Below, one piece after another: positions 21,791 to 36,866 of a stretch of DNA of 50,585 nt. Below the pieces are notes generated by a model. It saw only the letters and a list, made by a program, of their open reading frames with translations. It was not told where the DNA came from and did not search any database. The position numbers and the translations under genes are program-made. This DNA comes from an uncultured Clostridia bacterium (lineage in GTDB: Bacteria > Bacillota > Clostridia > Lutisporales > Lutisporaceae): NCBI GenBank assembly GCA_937930535.1, contig CALGKJ010000003.1:1-50585 (forward strand). Reading direction: 5' to 3'. The number at the start of each line of letters is the position of its first letter. Within the stretch, counting starts at the first letter, position 1.

Positions 21791-21821
21791 TTCAAAATAA
21801 TTTAGGCGGGAAGTGTATAGT

Positions 21822-23726
21822 ATGACATTTTCATTAAACAGCCCATATGATACTTATTTATTTCATCAAGGTAACCATTTTAGGAGTTATGAATTTATGG
21901 GAGCTCACCTTGTAGAAAATAATGGTGTTAGTGGAGCTATATTTAATTTGTGGGCACCCAATGCAAAGGAAGTAAGAGTAGTCGGTGACTTTAATAGCTG
22001 GAATGGGTGCTGTCATTGCATGGAAAAACAAAGCGATTCTGGAATTTGGTCGCTCTTTATTCCTAATCTCAAGCAGTGGGATTTATACAAGTACGAGCTA
22101 TATACCTGGGATGGCCGGGTACTCACTAAATCAGACCCATATGCCTTTTATTCCGAAATGAGACCGGGTACTGCCTCTAAAATAGCAGCATTGGATTTAT
22201 ATGAGTGGAATGATAAGGCTTGGATGGAGAATAGAAAAAATCTTAACACATCTGAAAAGCCAGTTAATATATATGAAGTTCATTTAGGCTCATGGAAAAG
22301 AAAAGAGAATGGAGATTTTTATACATATAGAGAGCTAGCAGAAGAATTAGTTGAATATGTATGTTATATGGGGTATACACATATAGAGGTACTACCTCTT
22401 TCTGAGCATCCTTATGATGGTTCATGGGGATATCAATCAACAGGATATTATTCTGCAACCAGCCGATATGGCTCACTTTATGATTTTATGTATTTTGTAG
22501 ACAGGTGTCATCAAATGGGAATAGGTGTTATTATGGACTGGGTACCAGGTCATTTCTGCAAGGACGATCATGGTTTAAGGCAATTTGACGGTACTGCTTT
22601 ATATGAATATGCGGATCCTGTTAAGGGGGAAAATGCAGGCTGGGGTACTGCAAATTTTGATCTGGGAAGAACAGAGGTAAATAGCTATCTTATTTCTAAT
22701 GCCCTTTTCTGGCTTGACAAGTATCACATAGATGGAATTAGAGTAGATGCTGTTGCCAGCATGCTTTATCTTGATTTTGGTAAGGAAGCGGGTCAATGGC
22801 AGCCCAATCGTAATGGTGGTCGAGAAAACCTTGAAGCTGTAGAATTTATAAAAAAATTAAATACAATGGTACATGAATATTATCCAAATGTATTGATGAT
22901 TGCTGAAGAGTCAACCACATGGCCTTTTGTAACAGCTCCAACCCATTCTGAGGGTCTCGGCTTTAATTATAAGTGGAATATGGGCTGGATGAACGATATG
23001 CTTAAATATATGGAAATGGATTCAATATATAGAAAGTTTCATCATAATCTTATTACATTTTCATTTATGTACGCATATTCGGAAAATTTTCTCTTGCCTT
23101 TATCACATGATGAGGTGGTGCATGGGAAAAAATCATTAATAGATAAAATGCCCGGTGATTATTGGCAGAAGTTTGCGAATCTAAGAGCTTTCTATGGCTA
23201 TATGATGGCACATCCAGGAAAGAAGCTGCTCTTTATGGGCGGAGAGTTTGGTCAGTTTATAGAATGGCGGTATGCTGATAGTTTGGACTGGTTGCTTTTA
23301 GATTATGATATGCATAAAAAAATGCAAAACTATGTTAAAGCCCTTAATGAATTTTATAAAAATGAAGCCAGCTTGTGGGAGCTGGATCACACATGGGACG
23401 GCTTTAAATGGATAGATGCAGACAACTATACTCAAAGCATTGCAGCCTTTATACGAAGAAGCAGGAACAAAAAGGATTATCTTGTGGTTATATCTAATTT
23501 TATACCTGTAGTGCATGAGAGCTATAGAATAGGTGTACCTTATTCAGGTGATTACATTGAAGTATTTAATAGTGATTGGTGCGAATTTGGCGGTTCAGGT
23601 CAACTTAACAGCAAACTTATAAAAACTGATAAAATAAAATGGCATGATATGGATTACTCGATAGAAATCAAAATTCCACCGTTAGCAACAGTATTTTTAA
23701 GGAATACTAATATTGAGCTGGATTAG
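21822..23726 (+). CDS. glgB: 1,4-alpha-glucan branching enzyme
   Basis: A 634-residue GH13 enzyme that creates alpha-1,6 branches in glycogen. An N-terminal CBM48 domain (AIFNLWAPNAKEVRVVGDFN) is followed by the (beta/alpha)8 barrel with EVLPLSEHP, the nucleophile Asp309 (DGIRVDAVASMLY), the AEEST block with the acid/base Glu, and LSHDEVVHGK with the third carboxylate. The start is ATG 21822 behind GGGAAG; the GTG at 21813 is in frame but overlaps that signal. It is the first gene of glgB-glgC-glgD-glgA-glgP, with a 12-nt gap to glgC. Confidence 0.96.
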   Translation: MTFSLNSPYDTYLFHQGNHFRSYEFMGAHLVENNGVSGAIFNLWAPNAKEVRVVGDFNSWNGCCHCMEKQSDSGIWSLFIPNLKQWDLYKYELYTWDGRVLTKSDPYAFYSEMRPGTASKIAALDLYEWNDKAWMENRKNLNTSEKPVNIYEVHLGSWKRKENGDFYTYRELAEELVEYVCYMGYTHIEVLPLSEHPYDGSWGYQSTGYYSATSRYGSLYDFMYFVDRCHQMGIGVIMDWVPGHFCKDDHGLRQFDGTALYEYADPVKGENAGWGTANFDLGRTEVNSYLISNALFWLDKYHIDGIRVDAVASMLYLDFGKEAGQWQPNRNGGRENLEAVEFIKKLNTMVHEYYPNVLMIAEESTTWPFVTAPTHSEGLGFNYKWNMGWMNDMLKYMEMDSIYRKFHHNLITFSFMYAYSENFLLPLSHDEVVHGKKSLIDKMPGDYWQKFANLRAFYGYMMAHPGKKLLFMGGEFGQFIEWRYADSLDWLLLDYDMHKKMQNYVKALNEFYKNEASLWELDHTWDGFKWIDADNYTQSIAAFIRRSRNKKDYLVVISNFIPVVHESYRIGVPYSGDYIEVFNSDWCEFGGSGQLNSKLIKTDKIKWHDMDYSIEIKIPPLATVFLRNTNIELD

Positions 23727-23738
23727 GAGGGGAAAAAC

Positions 23739-24893
23739 ATGCAAAAAAAAGAATGGATCGGAATGATTTTAGCAGGCGGGCAAGGCAGCAGACTGACCTT
23801 GCTGACAAAAAAAATTGCAAAACCTGCTGTGCCTTTTGGTGGGAAATATAGGATCATAGATTTTCCTCTAAGCAATTGTTCAAATTCAGGTATAGACACT
23901 GTGGGCGTATTAACACAATATCAACCGTTAATTTTGAATTCCTATATAGGTATTGGAAGCCCATGGGATTTAGACAGGAAAAAAGGCGGGGTTACATTGC
24001 TGCCGCCATACATGAATGAGCAGGGCGGAGAATGGTATAAGGGGACTGCTAACGCAATCTTTCAAAATATCAACTTTATTGACTATTATGATCCTGAATA
24101 TGTGCTGATACTTTCAGGTGATCACATATACAAAATGGACTATTCTCAAATGCTAAATTTTCATAAAAAGAAGGGTGCAGAAGCTACAATTGCTGTTATT
24201 GAAGTGCCTTGGGAAGAAACAAACAGATTTGGAATCATGAATACTAATGAAGATGGAAGCATCTATGAATTTGATGAAAAACCTAAAAATGCAAAAAGCA
24301 ACCTTGCCTCCATGGGAGTTTACATATTTAACTGGAAAACCTTGAGGAAATTTTTAGTTGAAGATGAGCAGGATAAAAACTCACAAAATGATTTTGGAAA
24401 AAACATTATTCCTAATATGCTTGATACAGGTATAAAGCTTTTTGCTTATCCCTTTAAAGGCTATTGGAAGGATGTAGGTACTATAGAGAGCCTATGGGAA
24501 GCCAATATGGATCTGCTGAAGCCTGATAACGAGCTGAATCTTTATGATACATCCTGGAGAATTTACTCGGTAAATCCTATAAGACCACCGCATTTTACAG
24601 GAGAATCAGCAAGCATTAAAGGCTCTCTGATAGGCGAAGGCTGCGTAGTATACGGTGAAGTCCATAATTCGGTTCTTTTTTCAGGAGTATACGTTGGGAA
24701 AAATACAAAGCTTGTAGATACTGTTGTAATGCCTAATGTTACAATCGAAGATAATGTAACAATCGAGAGAGCTATTATCGGAAGCGATTCATTAATAAAA
24801 CCAGGCTGTGTAATCGGAGACAAAAACTCAAATGCAGTTACACTAATAGGCGAAAGTGATGTAGTTGAAGAAAACACAACATATAAAGAATAG
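23739..24893 (+). CDS. glgC: Glucose-1-phosphate adenylyltransferase, catalytic subunit
   Basis: 384 residues; makes ADP-glucose from ATP and glucose-1-phosphate. The N-terminal nucleotidyltransferase has [20 protein letters not shown], with the catalytic Arg and Lys, [11 protein letters not shown] and [11 protein letters not shown], with [15 protein letters not shown] for glucose-1-phosphate binding. The C-terminal left-handed beta helix runs from about 290. AGGAGGGG spans the glgB stop and precedes ATG 23739. With GlgD it is expected to form a heterotetramer, as described in other Firmicutes. A 104-bp repeat separates it from glgD. Confidence 0.96.
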
Positions 24894-24917
24894 AAAAACG
24901 CATATTATATAAATCTA

Positions 24918-25021
24918 TATAGAGAAACAACTTCAAAATTAAAGCTTTCCAGTTGTTTCTCACAAAGAGATTAGCAACTCTTAACGAAAAGTATTTTGAG
25001 TTTTAGAGGTGGTTATCTATA
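24918..25021 (-). mobile_element. 104-bp two-hairpin repeat, copy F, inside the glg operon
   Basis: Reverse orientation, exactly 104 bp with TA ends, between the glgC stop (24893) and the glgD start (25075). If transcribed with the operon it would place two stem-loops in the glgC-glgD mRNA. The element also creates an in-frame start codon at 25009 that artificially lengthens the glgD reading frame. Confidence 0.85.
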
Positions 25022-25074
25022 GGATACTTGCGTTACTATCGGGATTTATATATTTATTTGTGGGAGGGATTCAG

Positions 25075-26193
25075 ATGAAAGATTATATGGGAATTATCAA
25101 TCTCAGTGAAAGAGAAGATAATATTAAAGAATTGACATATAACAGACCCATTGCTGCTATACCTATAGCGGGCAGATATAGAATAATAGATTTTGCACTT
25201 TCTAATATGGTAAATTCAGAAATATCAAATGTGGGCATTTTTACTCAAAACAAATACAGAGCGCTTATTGACCATTTAGGCACCGGCAAGGCATGGGATC
25301 TGGACAGAAAAAATGATGGTCTATTTGTATTGAATCCTGTTTTTAATTATTATACACTGGGAATTTATAGAGGTGATATAGAGAACTTTAAGAATCATAT
25401 AGACTATGTACATCTTAGCAAGCAAAAAAATGTGATCGTCACATCAAGCAACATGATATGTAATGTTGACTACAAAGCTGCTATTCATTATCATACAGAA
25501 AAAAATGCAGATATAACAGTTTTATATAAAAAAGCAAATGATTGTGCAGAGAATTTCCAGTACTGCAATACTTATATTATAGATAACGATAATAAAATAA
25601 GTGCTGTAGATATAAATACAGGTAAAACCGATGAAAACAACATTTCCATGGAAATGTTTATTATGAGCAAGTCATTATTTTTAGATATTGTACATACATG
25701 CTCATCAAAGGGTGACTATGATTATTTTAAGGATGCCATACATAAAAATATTGGAAAATTCAAAGTCTATGGTTATGAATATGACGGATATCTGGCTTGT
25801 ATAAACTCTATTCAAAGCTATTTTAAGACTAGTATGCAGCTGCTGGATATGAAGCTTTCAAGAGAGCTGTTCTTCAAAAATGGTCTTATCTATACAAAGG
25901 TTAAGGATGAAGCGCCTACTAAATACACAGAAAATGCTGTTGTATCAAATTCGCTGCTTGCAAATGGAAGCATGATAGATGGTACTGTAGAAAACAGTAT
26001 AATATTTAGAGGCGTCAGAGTAAGAAAGGGAGCAGTGGTCAAGAATTCTATACTAATGCAGAATAGTATAGTAGAGGAAGACGCACTTGTCAGAAATGTA
26101 ATCCTCGATAAGAATGTTGTGATTACGCAGAATAAGCAGTTAAAGGGTGATGATAATTATCCTATAGTAATTGAGAAAAAGGCTATTATATAA
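25075..26193 (+). CDS. glgD: Glucose-1-phosphate adenylyltransferase regulatory subunit GlgD
   Basis: 372 residues, homologous to GlgC but degenerate. The AGGxGSRL catalytic loop is absent; the protein begins MKDYMGIINLSEREDNIKEL and goes into PIAAIPIAGRYRIIDFALSN. The beta-helix domain is kept (NSIIFRGVRVRKGAVVKNS). In Firmicutes, GlgD is nearly inactive alone but raises GlgC activity. GGGAGGGATTCAG precedes ATG 25075. The longer frame from 25009 begins inside repeat copy F and is rejected as the start. It is 28 nt before glgA. Confidence 0.94.
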   Translation: MKDYMGIINLSEREDNIKELTYNRPIAAIPIAGRYRIIDFALSNMVNSEISNVGIFTQNKYRALIDHLGTGKAWDLDRKNDGLFVLNPVFNYYTLGIYRGDIENFKNHIDYVHLSKQKNVIVTSSNMICNVDYKAAIHYHTEKNADITVLYKKANDCAENFQYCNTYIIDNDNKISAVDINTGKTDENNISMEMFIMSKSLFLDIVHTCSSKGDYDYFKDAIHKNIGKFKVYGYEYDGYLACINSIQSYFKTSMQLLDMKLSRELFFKNGLIYTKVKDEAPTKYTENAVVSNSLLANGSMIDGTVENSIIFRGVRVRKGAVVKNSILMQNSIVEEDALVRNVILDKNVVITQNKQLKGDDNYPIVIEKKAII

Positions 26194-26221
26194 TCAAATG
26201 AACTAAAAGGAGTGGATTGTC

Positions 26222-27652
26222 GTGAAGGTACTTTTAATTGCATCGGAAGTCCATCCATTTATTAATACTGGAAGCCTTGGCGATGTTGTCTTTTCACTTT
26301 CTAAAGAGCTTAGAAGGCTTGGCATAGATGTAAGAGTTATGATACCAAAATATGGTGATATCCCTAAATTCTTTAGAGATAAAATGACGTGTATAAATAT
26401 TTTTAACGTTCCTGTAGGCTGGAGAAACCAGTACTGCGGCTTGGAAGAGCTTAAGTATGAGGGTGCACCCTTCTACTTTATAGACAATGAGTATTACTTT
26501 AAAAGACAAGGTATATATGGTTTCTATGATGAAGCAGAAAGATACGCTTTTTTTAATAGAGCAGCACTGGAATCTATCCGCTATCTGGATTTTACTCCTG
26601 ACATTATACACTGCAATGACTGGCAGACAGGAATGCTCAGTGTACTATTAAAGGAGCACTATCAAAATGAGCCTGAATATAAGGAAATGAAAACAGTATT
26701 CACTATTCATGATCTAAAGCATCAAGGAGTATTTCCCAAAGAAATATTAGGAGAGCTTTTGAATTTGGGTAACGAATATTTCCGCAGTGATGCTGTTGAA
26801 TTTTACGGCGGTGTAAGCTTTGTGAAGGGTGGACTGGTATTCTCGGATTCCATAACTACCTTAAGCAGCACCTATGCAGATGAAATACAAACGCCATTTT
26901 TCGGAGAAAGACTAGATGATATTTTTAGAAAGAAAAGAAGAAGCTTGTATGGAATAGTTAATGGCATAGATTATACCGCTTATGACCCTGGAACGGATAG
27001 AAGCATCTATACCAACTATACAGTAGATACTTTAGAAAATAAGTCTGAAAACAAGGTAAAGCTTCAGGAAGTACTAGGACTGAAGGTTGATGCTGAAATA
27101 CCAATGCTGGCACTGGTGTCTGAGCTTACTATGCAAAAGGGTATTGATCTGCTGGCATATATTTTGGAAGACCTTTTAAATATGGACATACAGATGGTAG
27201 TCTTAGGCAAAGGTGAGCATCAGTATGAAAACTTATTTATGGAATATGCAAAAAGATATCCAAAGAAGCTGTCTGTCAGCCTTGTGGAGGATGATTTTCT
27301 TGCCAGAAGAATATTCGCCGCCTCAGACATATGCCTTAAGCCATCCCTTTTTGAGCCTTGCGGAACAGGGCAGTTAATGGGAATGAGATATGGATGTCTA
27401 CCCATAATAAGAGAGACCGGTGGGCTGAAGGATACTGTAAAGCCATATAATGAGTATACAGGCGAAGGCTGCGGATTCAGCTTTACCCATTATAATGCGC
27501 ATGACCTGTTATATACTATAAAGAGAGCCTTGGATGTTTATAAGGACAAAACAATCTGGAACAACATAGTAAAAAATGCCATGCTGCAGGATTACAGTTG
27601 GCGCAGCACTGCTTTGAAATATAAGCGTGTATACCAGGAATTGACATTGTAA
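26222..27652 (+). CDS. glgA: Glycogen synthase with altered active-site residues
   Basis: A 476-residue GT5 glycogen synthase-type protein; elongates alpha-1,4-glucan from ADP-glucose in E. coli GlgA. GTG start behind AAGGAGTGG. Landmarks are KVLLIASEVHPFINTGSLGD at the N-terminus, HCNDWQTGML, FTIHDLKHQG, NGIDYTAYDP, and SLFEPCGTGQLMGMRYG. Two positions that are nearly invariant in GlgA differ: the Lys of KTGGL is Asn (INTGSL), and the Arg of SRLTxQKG is Glu (SELTMQKG), although the Lys of QKG is present. Either specificity has drifted or activity is low. It lies between glgD and glgP (55-nt gap). Confidence 0.9.
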   Translation: MKVLLIASEVHPFINTGSLGDVVFSLSKELRRLGIDVRVMIPKYGDIPKFFRDKMTCINIFNVPVGWRNQYCGLEELKYEGAPFYFIDNEYYFKRQGIYGFYDEAERYAFFNRAALESIRYLDFTPDIIHCNDWQTGMLSVLLKEHYQNEPEYKEMKTVFTIHDLKHQGVFPKEILGELLNLGNEYFRSDAVEFYGGVSFVKGGLVFSDSITTLSSTYADEIQTPFFGERLDDIFRKKRRSLYGIVNGIDYTAYDPGTDRSIYTNYTVDTLENKSENKVKLQEVLGLKVDAEIPMLALVSELTMQKGIDLLAYILEDLLNMDIQMVVLGKGEHQYENLFMEYAKRYPKKLSVSLVEDDFLARRIFAASDICLKPSLFEPCGTGQLMGMRYGCLPIIRETGGLKDTVKPYNEYTGEGCGFSFTHYNAHDLLYTIKRALDVYKDKTIWNNIVKNAMLQDYSWRSTALKYKRVYQELTL

Positions 27653-27707
27653 CAGTGTGCTGTTTCAAATATTATGAATCAAAGTTAGAGGAAAATCGGA
27701 GGAGAAA

Positions 27708-30173
27708 ATGGATATAAGTAAAGAAAAGTTCAAAGAGGATTTTATTAATAAATTAACAACGATGCATGCGAAAAGTCTGGAACAAGCATCAATTTTAGAT
27801 AAGTATTCAGCTCTTGGAAGCTTGATAAGAGACTATGTAGCGGAAAAGTGGGTAAAAACCAATCATAAATATTACGAACAAGGCGAAAAACAGGTATACT
27901 ACTTTTCAATAGAATTTTTACTAGGAAGACTGCTAGGCAACAATCTGGTTAGTATAGGACTTGAAGAGCTTTGCGAAGAAGCACTAAAGGAGCTTGGCAT
28001 AACTCTAAAAGAGCTAAAATCAGTAGAACCGGATGCAGGACTAGGAAATGGCGGTTTGGGAAGACTTGCTGCCTGCTTTTTGGACTCAATGGCATCTCAA
28101 GGCATACCTGGTCATGGCTGCGGCATAAGATATAAATATGGCTTGTTTGAACAGAAAATAGTTAACGGCTATCAGGTAGAGCTTCCAGAAAACTGGCTGA
28201 GGGAAGGCAATGTTTGGGAAATAAGAAGAAGCGACAAGGCTGTTGAAGTAAAATTCGGCGGCAATGTATGGACAGAGCAGAAGGATGGAAGCTTAGTATT
28301 TCATCATGATAACTATGAGCCTGTTTTAGCAGTACCATATGATACGCCAATAATAGGCTATAAAAATAACACCGTAAATACTTTAAGGCTGTGGAGTGCG
28401 GAAACTCCAGTCAAGGATTTTGACTTATCCTCCTTTAGCAGAGGAGATTATCTAAAAGCAGTAGAGCAAAAGTATTCCGTAGAGTCCATATCCCAAGTGC
28501 TGTATCCTGATGACAGCTATCACGAAGGAAGAGTATTAAGACTCAAACAGCAGTATTTCTTTGTATCTGCTGGTATTCAAAGTATCGTAAGAAACTTTAA
28601 GGCAGCAGGGCATAATATACATGACTTTGATGAAAAGGTGGCTATTCATATAAATGATACCCATCCAGCAGTTGCCGTGCCTGAGCTTATGCGTATACTT
28701 ATGGATGTTGAAGGCTTAGATTGGGACGAAGCTTGGAGAATAACCACCAATACTATATCCTATACCAACCATACAATTATGGCGGAAGCTCTGGAAAAAT
28801 GGCCTATAGATATGTTTAAGGGATTGCTTCCAAGAATATTCTTGATTGTAGAGGAAATCAACGAGAGATTCTGCAAGGAGCTTTGGAATAGATACAACGG
28901 CGATTGGGATCGTATAGGTAAAATGGCTATTATTGGAGATGGATATGTAAGGATGGCGCATCTGGCTATTGTAGGCAGCCACAGCGTAAACGGAGTAGCA
29001 AAGATACACACTGAAATATTAAAGAAACAGGAGCTGGCAGATTTTTATAACTTCCAGCCCTATAAGTTTAATAATAAGACCAACGGTATAACTCATAGAA
29101 GATGGCTCAGAAAGGCAAATCCGAAGCTGAGCCAGTTGGTAAAGGCAACAATAGGACCAGAGTGGATAAGACATCCTACCGAGCTTATTCGACTTCTGAA
29201 ATATGCCGATGATCCAGTGTTTCAAGAAAAAGTGCATCAAATAAAGCATGAAAACAAACAGCATCTGTCAGCAATAATTAAGGATAAGTACGACATAAAT
29301 ATTGACCCCAACTCCATATTTGATGTGCATATAAAAAGGCTTCATGCATACAAAAGACAAATACTGAATGTACTAAATATAATGAACTTATATAACAGAT
29401 TATTGGATAATCCTGATTTGGATATAGTTCCTCGTACCTTTATATTTGGCGCAAAGGCTGCACCGGGCTATTATCTTGCCAAGCAGACAATAAAGCTTAT
29501 CAATACACTGGCTCATAAAATAAATAACGATAAGAGAATAAAGGATAAGATCAAGGTAGTATTTATGGAGGACTATAAGGTATCTCTGGCAGAAAGAATA
29601 ATTCCTGCTGCTGACGTAAGCGAGCAGATATCAACCACTACAAAGGAAGCATCCGGCACAGGAAACATGAAGCTTATGATGAATGGTGCAATAACTATTG
29701 CAACCTTGGACGGGGCGAATATTGAAATAAGAGATGAGGTAGGAGACGACAACATTGTAATATTCGGATTAACCGAAATGGAGGTTATAGACTATTATAG
29801 GCATGGAGGCTACAACTCTGTGGATCTGTATAAGAATGACCCAAGGCTTACCCGAATATTGGATCAACTGCTTAACGGCTTCCTATTAGATAATAATGTT
29901 GAATTCTTAAGCATCTATAATGCGCTATTACTACATAATGATGAGTATTTCGTGCTTAAGGACTTTGATTCATATGTTAAAGCTCAGAATAATATTGACC
30001 AGTTATATAGAGATAAACAGAAATGGATGAGAATGGCGATACACAATATAGCTCACTCAGGTATATTCTCAAGTGACAGAACCATAATGGAATACGCATC
30101 TGGAATCTGGGGCGTCAGAAATGTTCCAGTAGATAAGTATAATGTGAGGATTGAGAAGGCGAGAGTAGAGTAA
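27708..30173 (+). CDS. glgP: Glycogen phosphorylase
   Basis: An 821-residue GT35 enzyme that releases glucose-1-phosphate from glycogen. The pyridoxal-phosphate Lys655 lies in EASGTGNMKLMMNG. Other blocks are FSIEFLLGRLLGNNL, GLGNGGLGRLAACFLDSMAS, NDTHPAVAVPELMR and HIKRLHAYKRQ. Length is typical (about 800-830). CGGAGGAGAAA precedes the ATG. A clear terminator lies downstream, so expression of the following genes needs read-through or a separate promoter. Confidence 0.97.
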   Translation: MDISKEKFKEDFINKLTTMHAKSLEQASILDKYSALGSLIRDYVAEKWVKTNHKYYEQGEKQVYYFSIEFLLGRLLGNNLVSIGLEELCEEALKELGITLKELKSVEPDAGLGNGGLGRLAACFLDSMASQGIPGHGCGIRYKYGLFEQKIVNGYQVELPENWLREGNVWEIRRSDKAVEVKFGGNVWTEQKDGSLVFHHDNYEPVLAVPYDTPIIGYKNNTVNTLRLWSAETPVKDFDLSSFSRGDYLKAVEQKYSVESISQVLYPDDSYHEGRVLRLKQQYFFVSAGIQSIVRNFKAAGHNIHDFDEKVAIHINDTHPAVAVPELMRILMDVEGLDWDEAWRITTNTISYTNHTIMAEALEKWPIDMFKGLLPRIFLIVEEINERFCKELWNRYNGDWDRIGKMAIIGDGYVRMAHLAIVGSHSVNGVAKIHTEILKKQELADFYNFQPYKFNNKTNGITHRRWLRKANPKLSQLVKATIGPEWIRHPTELIRLLKYADDPVFQEKVHQIKHENKQHLSAIIKDKYDINIDPNSIFDVHIKRLHAYKRQILNVLNIMNLYNRLLDNPDLDIVPRTFIFGAKAAPGYYLAKQTIKLINTLAHKINNDKRIKDKIKVVFMEDYKVSLAERIIPAADVSEQISTTTKEASGTGNMKLMMNGAITIATLDGANIEIRDEVGDDNIVIFGLTEMEVIDYYRHGGYNSVDLYKNDPRLTRILDQLLNGFLLDNNVEFLSIYNALLLHNDEYFVLKDFDSYVKAQNNIDQLYRDKQKWMRMAIHNIAHSGIFSSDRTIMEYASGIWGVRNVPVDKYNVRIEKARVE

Positions 30174-30215
30174 GTGTCAAAGTAAAAATCATTAAACTGT
30201 CATAAGCATGTTTAG

Positions 30216-30253
30216 AGTGAATGTGTATCTCTTGGATATACATTCACTTTTTA
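30216..30253 (+). terminator. Intrinsic terminator after glgP
   Basis: AGTGAATGTGTATC pairs with GATATACATTCACT (14 bp, one G-T) around a short loop, followed by TTTTT. Confidence 0.85.
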
Positions 30254-30324
30254 ATAAAGCTGCAATTTATTGCACTAAAAATATATACTGCATATATCAA
30301 TATAAGGAAGCAGGTGAAGTTGTT

Positions 30325-32301
30325 TTGAGTCAGAATTTTATTATTCACAATTCACATGATGTTAAATATAGAGAGCCCTTTGGGGCAGTATCCTGCGGAG
30401 CGGATGTAACTCTTAGAGTAGAAGCCAACACCAGATTAACCATAAATTCTGCCAAGCTGGTACTAATAGAGGATAATGGTGCTGAAAGACATATAGATAT
30501 GCAGCTGGAGCAGCAGCAAGATGAAAAGCATTTATATGTAACAAGACAAACTGTGTTACAAGAACCGGGACTTTTATGGTACTATTTTAAACTTAATATC
30601 GACGGTGTTGACTATTTTTATGGCAACAACAGCAATGCCTATGGAGGTATAGGGCATATAGCTCACCACATACCTGTTTATTACCAGATTACGGTATTTG
30701 AGAAAGCTGCAAAAGTTCCATCGTGGTACAAGGATGCCGTTATTTATCAGATCTTTGTTGATAGATTTTTCAATGGCAATGAGGATGGAAAAATATTAAA
30801 TCTAAGAAACAACAGCTTTTTATATTCAAGCTGGGAGGATACTCCCTGCTATATTAAGGATCGTGATACGGGTGAGATACTCAAGTGGGACTTTTTCGGC
30901 GGTAATTTGCTTGGTGTAATCAAAAAGCTGGATTATCTAAAGGATTTAGGAATTAATACTATTTATCTTAACCCTGTATTTGATTCCCCAAGCAGCCATA
31001 AATATGATACATCTGATTATAAGAGCATAGACAAAATGTTTGGAGACAATGAAATATTCAGAAGGCTTTGTGAAGAAGCCAAGGCAAAGGGTATGTCCAT
31101 AATACTCGATGGTGTTTTCAGTCATACCGGCAGTGACAGCATATACTTTAACCGATACGGCAGCTACAATACGCTGGGTGCATATCAATCCAAGGAATCA
31201 CCTTATTACTCATGGTATAGATTCCACGATCATCCGCATTCCTACGAATGCTGGTGGGGTATTGATAACATGCCCAATATAAATGAAATGAATCCAGACT
31301 ATAGACGTTATATTATTAGCGATGAAGATAGTGTAATAAAGTACTGGATAAAGCAGGGAATCAAGGGCTGGAGACTTGATGTAGCTGACGAGCTGCCGGA
31401 TGAATTTATCAAGGAGCTTAAGGCTGCTATGCAGCAGCAGGATCCTGAATCAATACTTATAGGTGAGGTATGGGAGGATGCATCCAACAAAATCAGCTAT
31501 GGCAGCAGAAGAAGATACCTGTTGGGAGAAGAGCTGGACTCAGTAATGAACTATCCCTTTAGAAGCATTATGATGGATTATATACTAAGCTGGAAAAGTG
31601 CTGAACAAGCCAATGCAGCAATGATGAGCCTAAAGGAAAACTATCCTCCTCACAATTTCTATGCAAATATGAATCTAATAGGAACCCATGATGTACCTAG
31701 GATACTAACAATATTGGGAGAAGCACCTGCTGAGGAAGCCTTAAGCTACAAGCAAAAATCCGAGTATAAGCTGGATGATGAAAAAAGGCGGCTTGCAATA
31801 TCAAGGCTTAAGCTTATGTCGCTGATACAGATGACCTTCCCGGGCGTACCATCAATATACTATGGAGACGAAGCGGGAGTAGAGGGACATAGAGATCCCC
31901 TGAACCGCAAAACATATCCCTGGGGAAAGGAAGATACTGAGCTTTTGGAGTGGTATAAAAAGCTTATAGCTGCAAGGCATAAATATAGCTGCTTAAGCAC
32001 AGGAGATTTTATACCATTATACGCAAGAGATACTGTTTATGCCTATTTGAGAATAATAAACAACGAAAAGGACGCTTTCGGCGAATACAGAAAAAATAGT
32101 ACAGCAGTCGTTATATTAAATAGAAGTAAGCATGATAATGAAAAAATTGAGATAAATCTGAAGCCTTGGCTGGACAGCGGCTGTTTAATAGATATCCTTT
32201 CCAATAATGAATATTTACTAAAAGAGGGTATACTCAACATAGAGCTAAAGCCCTTAGAAGGTAAAATATTTATATGTAAAGGCAGTACACATAATGAATA
32301 G
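30325..32301 (+). CDS. GH13 alpha-amylase/neopullulanase-type glycosidase
   Basis: 658 residues from TTG 30325, which has AGGTGA at 8-nt spacing. The frame opens at ATG 30208, but that codon lies just before the glgP terminator stem and its sequence would be translated through the hairpin. An N-terminal beta domain (about 1-125) leads to VIYQIFVDRFFNGN and the barrel: TIYLNPVFDSPSSHKYDTSD, ILDGVFSHTG, GWRLDVADEL (nucleophile Asp), LIGEVWED (Glu) and LIGTHDVPRI (Asp). It is cytosolic (no signal peptide) and placed with glycogen genes, so it probably trims glycogen or maltodextrins. It overlaps the methyltransferase gene by 8 nt. Confidence 0.93.
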   Translation: MSQNFIIHNSHDVKYREPFGAVSCGADVTLRVEANTRLTINSAKLVLIEDNGAERHIDMQLEQQQDEKHLYVTRQTVLQEPGLLWYYFKLNIDGVDYFYGNNSNAYGGIGHIAHHIPVYYQITVFEKAAKVPSWYKDAVIYQIFVDRFFNGNEDGKILNLRNNSFLYSSWEDTPCYIKDRDTGEILKWDFFGGNLLGVIKKLDYLKDLGINTIYLNPVFDSPSSHKYDTSDYKSIDKMFGDNEIFRRLCEEAKAKGMSIILDGVFSHTGSDSIYFNRYGSYNTLGAYQSKESPYYSWYRFHDHPHSYECWWGIDNMPNINEMNPDYRRYIISDEDSVIKYWIKQGIKGWRLDVADELPDEFIKELKAAMQQQDPESILIGEVWEDASNKISYGSRRRYLLGEELDSVMNYPFRSIMMDYILSWKSAEQANAAMMSLKENYPPHNFYANMNLIGTHDVPRILTILGEAPAEEALSYKQKSEYKLDDEKRRLAISRLKLMSLIQMTFPGVPSIYYGDEAGVEGHRDPLNRKTYPWGKEDTELLEWYKKLIAARHKYSCLSTGDFIPLYARDTVYAYLRIINNEKDAFGEYRKNSTAVVILNRSKHDNEKIEINLKPWLDSGCLIDILSNNEYLLKEGILNIELKPLEGKIFICKGSTHNE

Positions 32302-34060
32302 ACACGAAAACCTATACAACCAAGGCAAAACCTTTGAGCAAAATATGGAGACAGTAGAACGTAAGGCTAAAGGGGTGTTCTATACCCCTCTGCCAATAGT
32401 AGAATACATGGTGGAATATGCTTTAAGCAATGTTAAGCTTTGGGACAACCCCTACATTAAAATACTTGACCCAGCCTGCGGTGCTGGATATTTTCTGCTT
32501 AAGGCAATAGAAGTACTGGAAAGAAAATTCAACAATAGTATATCTGAAATTATTGCTTATAGTATAGAACTAACAGATATCTTACAGCAAGGTAACATAA
32601 GGAAATTTATTGCTGAAAATATCATTTGGGGTGCTGACATTGACCCGGAGGCTGTTGAGATTGCAAAAAGCTCTATAAATGAGTTTGTCGGAGAGGAATG
32701 CAGTCTTAACATTATCTGCTGTGACAGCCTTACAAGCGGTGAGGTATGCCTGCTGGATGCGTCTATGGAAAATACCAAGCTTTATCAGCTATGGCATCAG
32801 CAATACAGCTACATACTCGGAAACCCTCCTTATATAGGACATAAGAAAGTGGATAACAGCTATAAAAAAATACTGCATAGGCTTTATAAAGAAGTGTACA
32901 GAGACAAATCTGACATACTATACTGCTTTATTAAAAAAAGCATAGATTTACTTGAAACACAAGGAGTAATGTCATTTATCTGCTCCAGATATTTTATGGA
33001 AGGACCTTCTGCGGAGTATTTGAGAAGGTATATTACAGATAGCTGTGATATAACAGAAATAGTTGATTTTCAAGGCTGTGAAGTATTTGAGGATGCTGGT
33101 GTAGCGGCTTGCATAATAACACTAAAGAAGCAAATCACAGATGCAGCCACCGATATAACAAAGGTCTGTAAATATAATCCTAGGGAAAAAATAAAGCAGC
33201 AGCAGGCTGAGAACTTTAAAATAAATAGAGAAATGCTGAAATCTGACGGCTGGCTTTTGATAGCTCCTGAACAGTATGAGCTTTACAAAATTATTGATGC
33301 CAAGGGGACACATCAGCTCCTGCAATTGATGGACAGCTATCAAGGAATAATTACCGGCTGTGATAAAGCATTTGTTGTGACAGCGGAGGATATAGAAAAG
33401 CACAGCTTGGAAAAAGAACTATTGAAGCCTTGGATTAAAAACAAAAATATATCCCCCAATATGATTGAACCTGCAAAGCAATATCTGATATACGCCGACT
33501 ATATCAATAACGAAGAACAATATCCCAATGCTGTTAGACATATAGCTCAGTACAAAAACAAGCTGATACAGAGAAGGGAATGTATAAAAGGAATAAGAGA
33601 ATGGTATAAGCTGCAATGGGGAAGGCAATGTGAAAGCTTTGACAGCAAAAAAATTGTCTATCCATATAAGTCTTCAAGTAGTCGTTTTGCGGTTGATAGG
33701 GAAGGATATTATTGCAGTGCGGATGTATACAGCCTTATTATAAAAAAGCAATATGCGGCTCAATTTAGCTATGAATATATAGCAGCAATACTAAACAGCA
33801 GTGTTATGGAATTTTATTTTAAGTGCTTTGCCAAAAAGCTTAGTGATAAGCTGTATGACTACTATCCAAATACAGTTTTAAAAATTAAAATTATTGGAGA
33901 TATTATTAATCAGGAATTATTACTATTATCTGAGAAAATAAAAAAATGCAAAAACAAGGAAGAAATTTATAGTATTTCATCAGCTATAGATAGGGAACTA
34001 TATAAAATGTATGGACTAAATGAAAGACAGATTGCAATTTTAGAAAACAGCTTAAAATGA
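32294..34060 (+). CDS. camA: Orphan N6-adenine DNA methyltransferase, CamA-like
   Basis: 588 residues. Motif I is LDPACGAGYF (Asp59) and motif IV NPPYIGHKK (Asn177), the gamma-class N6-adenine arrangement. The C-terminal half is a target-recognition region with YQGIITGCDKAF, KPWIKNKNI, RRECIKGIREWYKLQWGR, KKIVYPYKSSSSRFAVD, CSADVYSLIIKKQY and FSYEYIAAILNSSV. These blocks match, from memory, the order and wording of CamA of C. difficile, which methylates CAAAAA and affects sporulation. No restriction enzyme or specificity subunit is nearby. It overlaps the upstream amylase gene by 8 nt and has prsW 25 nt downstream, so it is embedded in a chromosomal operon and not a mobile RM cassette. The symbol rests on recalled similarity. 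Confidence 0.85.
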   Translation: MNRHENLYNQGKTFEQNMETVERKAKGVFYTPLPIVEYMVEYALSNVKLWDNPYIKILDPACGAGYFLLKAIEVLERKFNNSISEIIAYSIELTDILQQGNIRKFIAENIIWGADIDPEAVEIAKSSINEFVGEECSLNIICCDSLTSGEVCLLDASMENTKLYQLWHQQYSYILGNPPYIGHKKVDNSYKKILHRLYKEVYRDKSDILYCFIKKSIDLLETQGVMSFICSRYFMEGPSAEYLRRYITDSCDITEIVDFQGCEVFEDAGVAACIITLKKQITDAATDITKVCKYNPREKIKQQQAENFKINREMLKSDGWLLIAPEQYELYKIIDAKGTHQLLQLMDSYQGIITGCDKAFVVTAEDIEKHSLEKELLKPWIKNKNISPNMIEPAKQYLIYADYINNEEQYPNAVRHIAQYKNKLIQRRECIKGIREWYKLQWGRQCESFDSKKIVYPYKSSSSRFAVDREGYYCSADVYSLIIKKQYAAQFSYEYIAAILNSSVMEFYFKCFAKKLSDKLYDYYPNTVLKIKIIGDIINQELLLLSEKIKKCKNKEEIYSISSAIDRELYKMYGLNERQIAILENSLK

Positions 34061-34085
34061 ATAGAAAACAGGATGTGAGTATCTT

Positions 34086-34769
34086 ATGCTTTTAGTAACA
34101 GCGGCTGTAGCACCATCCATTGCATTATTGTATTATTTCTATATGCGTGATAAATACGAAAAGGAGCCGGGCGGTGTGCTGATAAAAGCCTTTCTGCTGG
34201 GTGTAATAATAATACTGCCTGTGCTTTTTGCTGAAATGAAGCTGAATATATTTGATACATCAGAAAGAAATTTAGTGACAGCCGGTTATACAGCTTTTGT
34301 AGTAGCCGGACTGGTAGAAGAGGCTTTTAAGTACTTGGCTTTCTTGCTTGTCATTTGGAAAAACAGAGAGTTTGACGAGATGTACGATGGAATAGTATAT
34401 TGTGTTTTTATCTCTCTTGGCTTTGCAACTGTAGAAAATGTCGCTTATGTTTTTTCAAGAGGAGGATTAAACACAGCTTTAATAAGAGCCTTTAGCGCTG
34501 TTCCTGCTCATGCTCTGTTTGGAGCTTCCATGGGATATTATTTAGGCGTGGCAAAATTTGTTTCAAAGGACAAAAGGCTGAAATATATGCTGTCAGGTCT
34601 TTTAGTTCCCGTTTTGCTGCATGGAATCTATGATTTTATACTTTTATCCCAACGCTTTATGCTTTTTATACTCTTCATACCATACATGCTATATCTTTGG
34701 AGAATGGCACTTAAGAATGTAGATAAGCTTGTTGAGGTATCACCATATAAGCCAATAAGAAAAAAATAA
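34086..34769 (+). CDS. prsW: PrsW-family intramembrane protease
   Basis: A 227-residue polytopic membrane protein. The glutamate motif VEEAFKYLAF near residue 80 (EExxK), followed by the downstream FATVENVAY (E) and conserved His motifs (AHALFGASMG, LLHGIYDF), identify PrsW. About seven transmembrane helices are visible. In Bacillus, PrsW makes the first cut in the anti-sigma factor RsiW; in C. difficile it acts on RsiT. No sigma/anti-sigma pair lies next to it here. AGGATGTGAG precedes the ATG. It follows the methyltransferase by 25 nt and is the last gene of the run. Confidence 0.92.
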   Translation: MLLVTAAVAPSIALLYYFYMRDKYEKEPGGVLIKAFLLGVIIILPVLFAEMKLNIFDTSERNLVTAGYTAFVVAGLVEEAFKYLAFLLVIWKNREFDEMYDGIVYCVFISLGFATVENVAYVFSRGGLNTALIRAFSAVPAHALFGASMGYYLGVAKFVSKDKRLKYMLSGLLVPVLLHGIYDFILLSQRFMLFILFIPYMLYLWRMALKNVDKLVEVSPYKPIRKK

Positions 34770-34771
34770 AT

Positions 34772-34807
34772 AAGAAATGGGATCTAATGAGATACCATTT
34801 CTTTTCT
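34772..34807. terminator. Terminator between convergent prsW and DUF2229 gene
   Basis: AAGAAATGG pairs with CCATTTCTT across GGATCTAATGAGATA, followed by TTCTTTT on the plus strand; A-rich sequence upstream could serve the minus strand. The stop of the minus-strand gene lies in the loop. Confidence 0.65.
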
Positions 34808-35881
34808 TTTACTTGTACCAGCCAAATAATCAATAAAGGCTTCCAATCTGGTTACATAGCCTGCTTCACCGGTCTGCTCATCTACTATCAGATATAATAT
34901 TGGTATATTATAATCCTTTTCAATCTGAGGCAGTATGGAGCGTGATACTATTTCGGGCATACAGGTCATAGGATATATTTGTATCAAGCCGTCATAATCC
35001 TGGTTAGCATACTTTATGGCATGAGCAATGCACTGTTGGGCATGACCGCCGATTAATGCAGGCAGATAAGGCTTTGACAGCTTTTTTTCATGAGCATAGG
35101 GCTTTCTGCCGGTGACAGGTCTGATTATTGTATTTCTTGCCCAATCCCCTACAGTCATGGATCTATGAACTTCTATTCCCATATCTCCCAGCTTTTCTTC
35201 AACCTCAAGATTGGAAAAAGGTTCAATAATGGTATATATCTCACCTATAATGCCGATTTTTAGAGGCTTATAGCTTGTATCAATAGGAACACTTTTTAAC
35301 TTTTCTATAGTATCCTGTATCATAGCAAGTATTTCTTCGGAGCCGTGGGTTTTTACTATGTCATTTCTAAAAGCATGTATTATTGCTTTCACCTTTGATT
35401 TGCTTAAGGCTCTAGGTCTGACATAGTAAAGTGTCTCGTTTAGTCTGTCAATTTCACAGCAGATTTTATAAGCTCTCCTTAATGCCTTTATGGGCTTTAT
35501 AACCTGCTTTCCAGTTATTTTTCCAAGCTCCTCCAAAAACTTTCTCTTACCCTCCTTGGGAGGATCAAGTATGACAAAATTTATATCCTTGTAGCCTTCG
35601 TTTTCCAATATTTGCTGCTGTATGGGACCGTAATATCCAAACCTGCATGGACCGCAGCTGCCAGTAATAATAATTGTATCTGCGCCTTCATTAATACTGT
35701 TAATATAGTTTCCAAGCATAATCTTAAAGGGAAGACATACACTCTCGGGTGAAAGCTTTGAGCCAAGCTGAAGCGTAGACTTGGTAGTATAAGCTGGAAT
35801 AACGCTTTCTATTCCGATGTCGTCAAACATAGCCTTAGCGGCTATATACGCTTCGCCCATGTGCGGGTACGTTAGCTTCAT
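34784..35881 (-). CDS. CoA-dehydratase-related protein (HgdB/DUF2229-like), subunit 2
   Basis: 365 residues from ATG 35881, which has TTGGAGGTCTGAAA in front; the frame is open further to 35941 but without a signal. It resembles the 2-hydroxyglutaryl-CoA dehydratase component D/DUF2229 family found with BadF-type activases. Cysteines that may bind an iron-sulfur cluster are in PESVCLPFKIML, ITGSCGPCRFGYYG and YPMTCMPEI. It overlaps the preceding homologous gene by 47 nt, so the pair is co-translated. The reaction is unknown; many clostridia carry this trio without a matching fermentation pathway. Confidence 0.85.
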   Translation of the reverse strand: MKLTYPHMGEAYIAAKAMFDDIGIESVIPAYTTKSTLQLGSKLSPESVCLPFKIMLGNYINSINEGADTIIITGSCGPCRFGYYGPIQQQILENEGYKDINFVILDPPKEGKRKFLEELGKITGKQVIKPIKALRRAYKICCEIDRLNETLYYVRPRALSKSKVKAIIHAFRNDIVKTHGSEEILAMIQDTIEKLKSVPIDTSYKPLKIGIIGEIYTIIEPFSNLEVEEKLGDMGIEVHRSMTVGDWARNTIIRPVTGRKPYAHEKKLSKPYLPALIGGHAQQCIAHAIKYANQDYDGLIQIYPMTCMPEIVSRSILPQIEKDYNIPILYLIVDEQTGEAGYVTRLEAFIDYLAGTSKRKEMVSH

Positions 35882-36866
35882 TTTCAGACCTCCAATCAAG
35901 TAGACTCTTAAAAGCTTCAAGTCGTGTGTTATAACCAGCATCCCCAGTATGCTCGTCTGTGGTCAGCACGATAAAGGGTTTTTTGTAATACCTGCGCAGT
36001 GCGTTTTCTACATATTCCACTGCAATGGAATCAATGCCGCAGCCAAAGGCAGTTACTATCAAAAGACCATCGATCTGAGAATTATCCATCATATATAAAG
36101 CACTTCCAATGATAGATTTTGCACTGCTCCAAAACATCCGCTTGGAAAGCTCCATACACCTCTCATTGATTATATGTGGATCAATCATTTCAGCGGTAAC
36201 ATATTTAATATTCCAATCATTAAGCTTGCTTAAAAGCTTCATATTTACAAAATCATCATAAATCAGGTATGGATGACCTATGACCCCCACAGTATATTTC
36301 TTGTTACTTTCCTGAGGCGGCTCACCCCTAAAAACTCTATTTGGTATGTTCCCATTCAGTAAGCTTTGCTTAAAGCCTTGGTGAGCAGTTAACGCCTTGT
36401 CTACAGCTCTTTTTATCTTTAATGGATTTTTAATGTTTAGCTGGTGTCCAAGCTTATATAAGGACTTTTTCAGATGTTTGCCGCTTCTGCTTAAATCAAT
36501 TTCAATATCCAGAAGCTGAGGCAGGTCAGGAACAGAAAACTTAACCATTTCAGGCAGCCCGCCAAATTTGGGACATATGTACTCATTTTGAGACACACTT
36601 GTAAGTCTCGGTACAAGGATATAATCAGAAGTATTTCTAAGCTTATGAGCATGACCATGATATACCTTTACCGGAAGACATGCATCATCTATACAATATT
36701 TTACCCCTTTATCAAGTATATCCTTGGTAGTTTCAGAGGAGGGTACAACCTCAGCTCCTAATTCGGTCAGGAAGGCTTCCGTAAATGGGAAGTGCTTATA
36801 ATAATATAAACCCCTTGGTACGCCGATTTTAATAGAAATAAATATCACCTCTTTCGTAGCCTGCAT
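35835..36866 (-). CDS. CoA-dehydratase-related protein (DUF2229-like), subunit 1
   Basis: Up to 343 residues. It begins with the family signature KIGVPRGLYYYKHFPF, then ELGAEVVPSSETTKDILDKG, CIDDACLPVKVYHGHA and LIVTAFGCGIDSIAVEYV with potential cluster-binding cysteines. The start is uncertain: ATG 36866 lacks a ribosome binding site, while AGAGGTGA lies just before an ATT at about 36831-36833 that would give exactly the family N-terminus (M-K-I-G-V-P-R). It probably forms a complex with its overlapping neighbour and is activated by a BadF-type ATPase such as the one at 16813. Confidence 0.85.
   Translation of the reverse strand: MQATKEVIFISIKIGVPRGLYYYKHFPFTEAFLTELGAEVVPSSETTKDILDKGVKYCIDDACLPVKVYHGHAHKLRNTSDYILVPRLTSVSQNEYICPKFGGLPEMVKFSVPDLPQLLDIEIDLSRSGKHLKKSLYKLGHQLNIKNPLKIKRAVDKALTAHQGFKQSLLNGNIPNRVFRGEPPQESNKKYTVGVIGHPYLIYDDFVNMKLLSKLNDWNIKYVTAEMIDPHIINERCMELSKRMFWSSAKSIIGSALYMMDNSQIDGLLIVTAFGCGIDSIAVEYVENALRRYYKKPFIVLTTDEHTGDAGYNTRLEAFKSLLDWRSENEANVPAHGRSVYSR

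Follow-up and report, generated by a model that had tools for sequence, protein, structure and literature searches.

A CamA-type orphan adenine methyltransferase gene in a glycogen/prsW operon of an uncultured Clostridia bacterium and the distribution of its family

In the gut pathogen Clostridioides difficile, spore formation is promoted by the DNA methyltransferase CamA (CD2758). The literature treats this enzyme as confined to that species or rare elsewhere (PMC8187626; PMC13395437, July 2026: 'specific to C. difficile') and advocates it as a drug target specific to C. difficile (PMC8187626; PMC13395437, 2026). A gene resembling it lies in a stretch of 50,585 nucleotides (hereafter the window) from an uncultured Clostridia bacterium of the Lutisporaceae (contig CALGKJ010000003.1). 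The locus raises the question of whether the gene encodes an enzyme of the same kind, with the same target, and of how far such enzymes extend beyond C. difficile. An original prediction, made from the letters of the window, had proposed a CamA-like orphan enzyme of the same or a closely related target. The gene is a further member of the already known CamA enzyme family, and its product is very probably an orphan methyltransferase whose target would be CAAAAA or CAAAAAR. CamA, supposedly species-specific, proves to be one branch of a family present in hundreds of clostridia across the class, and this distribution, rather than the gene alone, is the interesting part.

Homology to CamA, fold and base-reading residues

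The open reading frame (ORF) and its translation in the window are intact, with an ATG start and 588 residues, and the host genome (G000; 4.69 Mb in 252 contigs) holds a single copy. All the sequence blocks quoted in the original prediction were recovered in the protein: DPACGAGYF (residues 59-67), NPPYIGHKK (177-185), QGIITGCDKAF (350-360) and RRECIKGIREWYKLQWGR (427-444), and likewise KKIVYPYKSS, SADVYS and FSYEYIAAILNSSV. Pfam detected the domains Eco57I, N6_Mtase and TaqI_C and no nuclease domain in the 588 residues, so the protein is not a Type IIG fused restriction-methylase. The Eco57I methylase family also exceeded its cut-off in four other regions of the host genome, on contigs C69, C16, C156 and C179.

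Using phmmer against the PDB, CamA of C. difficile was retrieved with an E-value of 4e-122 over residues 11-550 of the window protein, the next solved relative being M.BseCI at 1.2e-21. BLASTP aligned the window protein with CamA over 555 residues at 41% identity and 61% positives. An AlphaFold model of the window protein was obtained with a mean predicted local distance difference test score of 90.6 and a predicted template modelling (TM) score of 0.87. Its first 33 Foldseek matches were all CamA-DNA complexes, with TM-scores of 0.79-0.84 by query length, and VIA-align superposed it on CamA 7rfk_A over 551 residues at 2.9 A with a Z-score of 38.9, compared with 30.2 for BseCI. A similarity confined to the catalytic core, which would have spoken against the original prediction, does not apply, because the similarity covers the whole protein. 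M.BseCI and M.TaqI share the gamma-class fold and a TaqI_C-type recognition domain with the window protein, but they have other targets and restriction-enzyme partners, and their identity to it is about 20%.

The residues of the window protein were compared with the base contacts named in the crystal structure paper of CamA (PMC8187626). The CamA sequence was taken from the phmmer alignment, and its numbering, used below, agrees with every checked residue named in that paper. Among the catalytic and S-adenosylmethionine (SAM) residues, G28, Y31, D60, D114, D149, NPPY and F200 are kept. In the segment G28-x-F/Y30-Y31-T32-P33, which closes over SAM and the target base (PMC8187626), the window protein has F for Y30, and it has A for S62 in motif I; both substitutions are common in the family. 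In the C-terminal target recognition domain (TRD), Q346, I349, R425, Q438, W439, R441, Y455, K456, S472, A473, S514 and Y521 are kept, as are the minor-groove contacts H171 and K172 (H183 and K184 in motif IV of the window protein). All the contacts reported at base pairs 1-4 are retained, and I517, replaced by L, is the sole TRD contact differing from CamA. The resemblance thus extends to the recognition half, as had been proposed.

We examined the conservation of these contacts in 38 sequences, comprising CamA, the window protein and homologs found by genome searches without any motif pattern. Ten of the 13 TRD contacts are invariant, against 36 of the 228 TRD positions overall (hypergeometric p 6e-7), and these ten hold down to 32% identity. 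When 80 named loci and 13 further, mostly distant loci were added, the ten contacts remained unchanged save for one Q438H; two rows of this alignment (L042 and L058) are fragments. A larger set of 237 relatives, from a scan of species-representative genomes, was retrieved with two peptide patterns spanning Q346/I349 and H171/K172, and for these residues only the pattern-free set therefore counts. The minor-groove contact H171 varies in some Clostridium and other members. A 1102-residue relative used as an outgroup control (L025) differs at seven TRD contacts, with A for Q346, A for I349, H for Q438, T for K456, L for S472, N for A473 and K for Y521.

Predicted target and orphan status

Since all the base-pair 1-4 contacts are kept, we predict CAAAAA as the target, either by itself or followed by a purine at position 7, and a target identical or nearly identical to that of CamA is likely. 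In the mechanism that we propose, the solitary gamma-class enzyme would read C1-A2-A3-A4 by direct contacts, A5 would pair with T6 and squeeze A6 out of the helix, and A6 of CAAAAA (possibly CAAAAAR) would be methylated throughout the chromosome, with no nuclease as partner. The enzyme may be presumed to act as an epigenetic regulator in connection with starvation, storage polysaccharide or the physiology of sporulation.

The characterised relatives agree with a target of this kind. CAAAAAR, with N6-methyladenine at position 6, is found in the methylomes of Acetobacterium woodii, Clostridium pasteurianum, C. ljungdahlii, C. autoethanogenum and Eubacterium limosum. In A. woodii the gene responsible, Awo_c14460, was identified by cloning (PMC6700114). 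Gene order and identity to a Eubacterium-type copy argue strongly that our relative L186 (genome G097) is this gene. It lies at 1,681,037, in agreement with the roughly 1.68 Mb expected for gene 1446 among 3473, and BLASTP gives it 48.6% identity to the Eubacterium-type copy, taken as that of E. limosum; the published value between Awo_c14460 and the E. limosum enzyme is 48.92%, worded as similarity (PMC9503626). The BLASTP identities of L186 are 38% with CamA and 33% with the window protein. This CamA-family member has the same base-pair 1-4 contacts as CamA, but G at position 514; it also differs from the window protein by about 110 extra N-terminal residues and by a host without SpoIIE. Position 514 is S in the window protein and CamA, and G in the A. 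woodii/Eubacterium-type and Clostridium members. The window enzyme, nearer to CamA and with S at this position, should read CAAAAA or CAAAAAR. We hypothesise that S514/G514 decides whether base 7 must be a purine, a difference that is confounded with phylogeny. A lone methylase of C. pasteurianum, CP6013_1459, for which CAAAAAR was predicted by REBASE and by the authors (PMC5027557), can be likened to the family by this predicted motif. We also considered CRAAAAR of C. carboxidivorans as a product of the CamA family and rejected it, the enzyme being encoded by a 3,726-bp fused restriction-modification gene; this rejection covers C. carboxidivorans alone, and C. cadaveris shares the CRAAAAR motif.

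With only 41% identity to CamA, and with TRDs of this class changing as readily as L025 shows, the window protein could in principle share the CamA fold and have a diverged target. We regard this as very improbable, since the contacts at base pairs 1-4 are all the same and CAAAAAR is made even by a member further removed from CamA.

To control for a cognate nuclease, PADLOC and Pfam (25 commonest families listed) were applied to the 70 immediate neighbours of 36 related loci. No restriction endonuclease was found among them, and three neighbours matched the methylase-like PADLOC model mad2. An adjacent cognate enzyme, which would have spoken against the original prediction, was not encountered at these loci. 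PADLOC labels the window protein a Type II MTase, and BseCI and TaqI, which resemble it in fold, serve as methylases in restriction-modification systems; on these grounds it could belong to such a system as its methylase, the nuclease being encoded elsewhere or lost, and have no regulatory role. This we consider very improbable, because nuclease sequences are lacking both within the protein and beside the 36 loci, because the enzyme occurs throughout the family and descends mostly vertically, as mobile restriction-modification systems typically do not, and because CamA is itself an orphan.

The likeness to CamA comprises full-length homology, the fold, the residues reading C1-A4, NPPY, a single copy and the lack of an adjacent nuclease in relatives. 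Several points nevertheless weigh against identifying the window enzyme as an orphan of target CAAAAA or CAAAAAR. Its activity and exact motif are predicted from sequence. The known relatives outside the Peptostreptococcaceae methylate CAAAAAR, and the seventh base may matter. A residue at base pairs 5-6 (I517, L520 in the window protein) and a residue of the target cage (Y30, now F) have changed. The nuclease check covered only neighbouring genes, not the whole genome. Finally, as CRAAAAR in C. carboxidivorans comes from a fused restriction-modification gene, likeness of motif alone does not identify an enzyme.

Distribution and descent of the family

The near-uniqueness of CamA to C. difficile, which the original prediction had taken as known, is contradicted by relatives across the window, C. 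difficile and Clostridium families. They were found in 17 of the 22 genomes of the window organism's family, in 55/65 genomes of the C. difficile family (Peptostreptococcaceae-like) and in 90/188 of the Clostridium family (Clostridiaceae-like). Over the class, 46 of 393 genomes and 29 of 219 genera contain one. In a 398-genome sample of the phylum none was detected outside the class, although Orenia (Halobacteroidaceae, L095) does carry a relative. Carriers hold one CamA-type copy each. The family names (Lutispora for the window family, Peptostreptococcaceae, Clostridiaceae, Tissierella) were assigned by way of named loci of identical sequence in the tree.

Distances between CamA proteins were compared with distances between SpoIIE proteins in 28 genomes. 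The correlation (r 0.80) was reached by none of 2000 permutations, as expected for largely vertical descent. Lutispora proper (genera g4 and g7) joins the window relatives by SpoIIE (100/100), and its CamA (L019-L024, L067) is 49% identical to that of Tissierella and only 38% to that of the window clade. This conflict, with a camA of another lineage than in the sister genera, points to a likely horizontal replacement in Lutispora. We place at even chances the broader proposal that clostridia share an ancient epigenetic system in which CamA-type enzymes methylate CAAAAA(R). It would have been passed on mostly vertically and tied at first to the sigma-F sporulation switch and glycogen storage, and C. 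difficile CamA would be one of its branches and not an invention of that species.

In the open-access literature (subscription papers and REBASE being outside its scope), we found on CamA homologs or CAAAAAR only a remark on similarity of motif (PMC10745947). Earlier recognition of the family beyond C. difficile is possible in subscription papers or in REBASE. Through the family, CAAAAAR methylomes reported here and there, from A. woodii, E. limosum and probably several Clostridium, are connected with CamA, and the biology of CAAAAA methylation becomes open to study in harmless, tractable acetogens and clostridia. It also forms a natural series for comparing the role of a solitary methyltransferase between spore-formers and lineages that lack SpoIIE. 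The selectivity of inhibitors becomes a concern if the enzyme and its DNA-reading surface are shared by commensal and environmental clostridia.

Some copies of camA are broken or decayed: 20 internal stops were counted in genome G962 and five in G890, and the copy of L058, from a metagenome-assembled genome, is split in two frames. A record titled 'Calditrichales bacterium MX18-03' (L053) has a camA identical to that of a genome of the window family (G014), and its organism is probably mislabelled. N-terminal extensions of 100-150 residues without a Pfam domain occur in some members (L057, L095, L078, L061, L045), and the Tepidibacter and Orenia members carry C-terminal extensions too, again without a Pfam domain.

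Sporulation genes and operon setting

CamA of C. difficile is reported to control spoIIE and sigma-F activation (PMC13395437), and the window host genome has SpoIIE. In 17 Clostridiaceae loci (L081, L089, L092, L097, L104, L109, L111-L113, L116, L118, L119, L121-L123, L125, L126) camA lies 98-2371 nt upstream of spoIIAA-spoIIAB-sigF on the same strand. In the Tissierella-type loci L055, L058 and L066 these genes follow camA by 3-5 genes, also on the same strand. This proximity independently echoes the control described in C. difficile (PMC13395437). At camA-sigF loci, spoVA genes often come after spoIIAA-spoIIAB-sigF.

The spoIIE promoter site of C. difficile is a point of difference, not being conserved in the window host. 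The Me3-type site upstream of spoIIE, TATGACAAAAA in C. difficile, reads CTGACAAATATT in the window genome, and it reads GACAAATATT in the window genome and most relatives. Within the window family only a relative of the same genus (L143) has CAAAAA there. In C. difficile CamA promotes sporulation by way of a CAAAAA in the Spo0A-box element of that promoter, and the matching element of the window genome has no such site; this circuit is a trait of one member and does not define the enzyme family. A TGACAAA(T/A)AT-type element upstream of spoIIE is conserved in most members of the window family (L138-L154); its Peptostreptococcaceae version is TGACAAAAA, hence a CamA site. A class-wide target in the spoIIE promoter was considered and rejected: the TGACAAA element is kept, but its CAAAAA form is confined to the Peptostreptococcaceae and a few others. 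Upstream of spoIIE, CAAAAA occurred 27 times for 16.5 expected in genomes with camA, no greater an excess than in those without (42 for 21.9).

SpoIIE was present in 29 of the first 30 camA-bearing genomes tested and missing in 15 of 22 further ones, Acetobacterium-like and Eubacterium-like genomes included. With many carriers lacking SpoIIE, the family is not kept by sporulation alone. An active enzyme with a general role in chromosome or gene regulation, rather than in sporulation control, is a serious alternative, in which the spoIIE circuit would be a feature of the C. difficile lineage. It is compatible with the identification of the enzyme, and we give it slightly less than an even chance. 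Besides the altered Me3-type site, the CAAAAA counts and the carriers without SpoIIE, it draws on a host fitness effect largely independent of sporulation (Kuhn et al., PMC13395437); against it speak the 17 loci of Clostridiaceae and several of Tissierella in which camA precedes spoIIAA-spoIIAB-sigF, and the presence of SpoIIE in 29 of the first 30 genomes.

The glycogen/prsW setting given in the original prediction was confirmed. The co-directional run extends over 21813-34769, camA overlapping the GH13 gene by 8 bp and prsW starting 25 bp past camA (Table 1). CamA of C. difficile differs in this respect, lying in an amidase/patatin/ptsI neighbourhood.

Table 1. Features of the window around the camA-family gene, with residues of the window protein and their CamA equivalents
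Feature	Position	Strand	Basis or remark
glgB-like branching enzyme ORF, head of the run	21813..23726	+	by reading
glgC	23739..24893	+	NCBIfam glgC match on 3' part
glgD	25009..26193	+	TIGR02092 over cut-off
glgA, glycogen synthase	26222..27652	+	NCBIfam scan
glgP, glycogen phosphorylase	27708..30173	+	TIGR02093, 1172.8 bits
GH13 alpha-amylase-type glycogen-degradation gene	30208..32301	+	domain scan
camA-family N6-adenine DNA methyltransferase gene	32294..34060	+	588 aa, gamma-class; motif I, motif IV, C-terminal TRD
GVFYTP, residues 27-32	32372..32389	+	aligns with CamA G28-x-F/Y30-Y31-T32-P33
Motif I DPACGAGYF, residues 59-67, SAM binding	32468..32494	+	A61 in place of CamA S62
Motif IV NPPYIGHKK, residues 177-185, catalytic	32822..32848	+	sequence and CamA alignment
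C-terminal TRD, about residues 320-588	33251..34057	+	alignment to CamA TRD 320-577
Q350, I353 (CamA Q346, I349), reading A3:T3	33341..33352	+	CamA alignment
R428 (CamA R425), reading G of C1:G1	33575..33577	+	CamA alignment
QWGR 441-444 (CamA Q438, W439, R441; C1, A2:T2, T3)	33614..33625	+	CamA alignment
Y458, K459 (CamA Y455, K456), wedge at base pair 5	33665..33670	+	CamA alignment
S475, A476 (CamA S472, A473; T4)	33716..33721	+	CamA alignment
S517, L520, Y524 (CamA S514, I517, Y521)	33842..33865	+	CamA alignment
prsW, intramembrane protease	34086..34769	+	PrsW confirmed by scan
Two overlapping ORFs, 2-hydroxyacyl-CoA dehydratase/activase-like	34784-36866	-	by reading; no NCBIfam match

The camA-prsW pair is kept in nine loci of the window clade, with gaps of -1 to 28 bp. 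In only four of these nine does glgP lie upstream of camA, some contigs ending early, and some relatives keep camA-prsW without glg genes beside camA. A physiological coupling of camA with glycogen and PrsW, and with envelope or sporulation control as in the original prediction, would be a reasonable but tentative reading of the conserved gene order. Scans for promoters and terminators near the operon found about as many as in shuffled sequence, and the CAAAAA content of the window itself is nothing unusual. The glycogen link recurs in two further clades far from that of the window (L085/L088/L117 and Orenia L095), where glgP lies directly upstream of camA. Beyond the operon, the two overlapping ORFs that close Table 1 face prsW.

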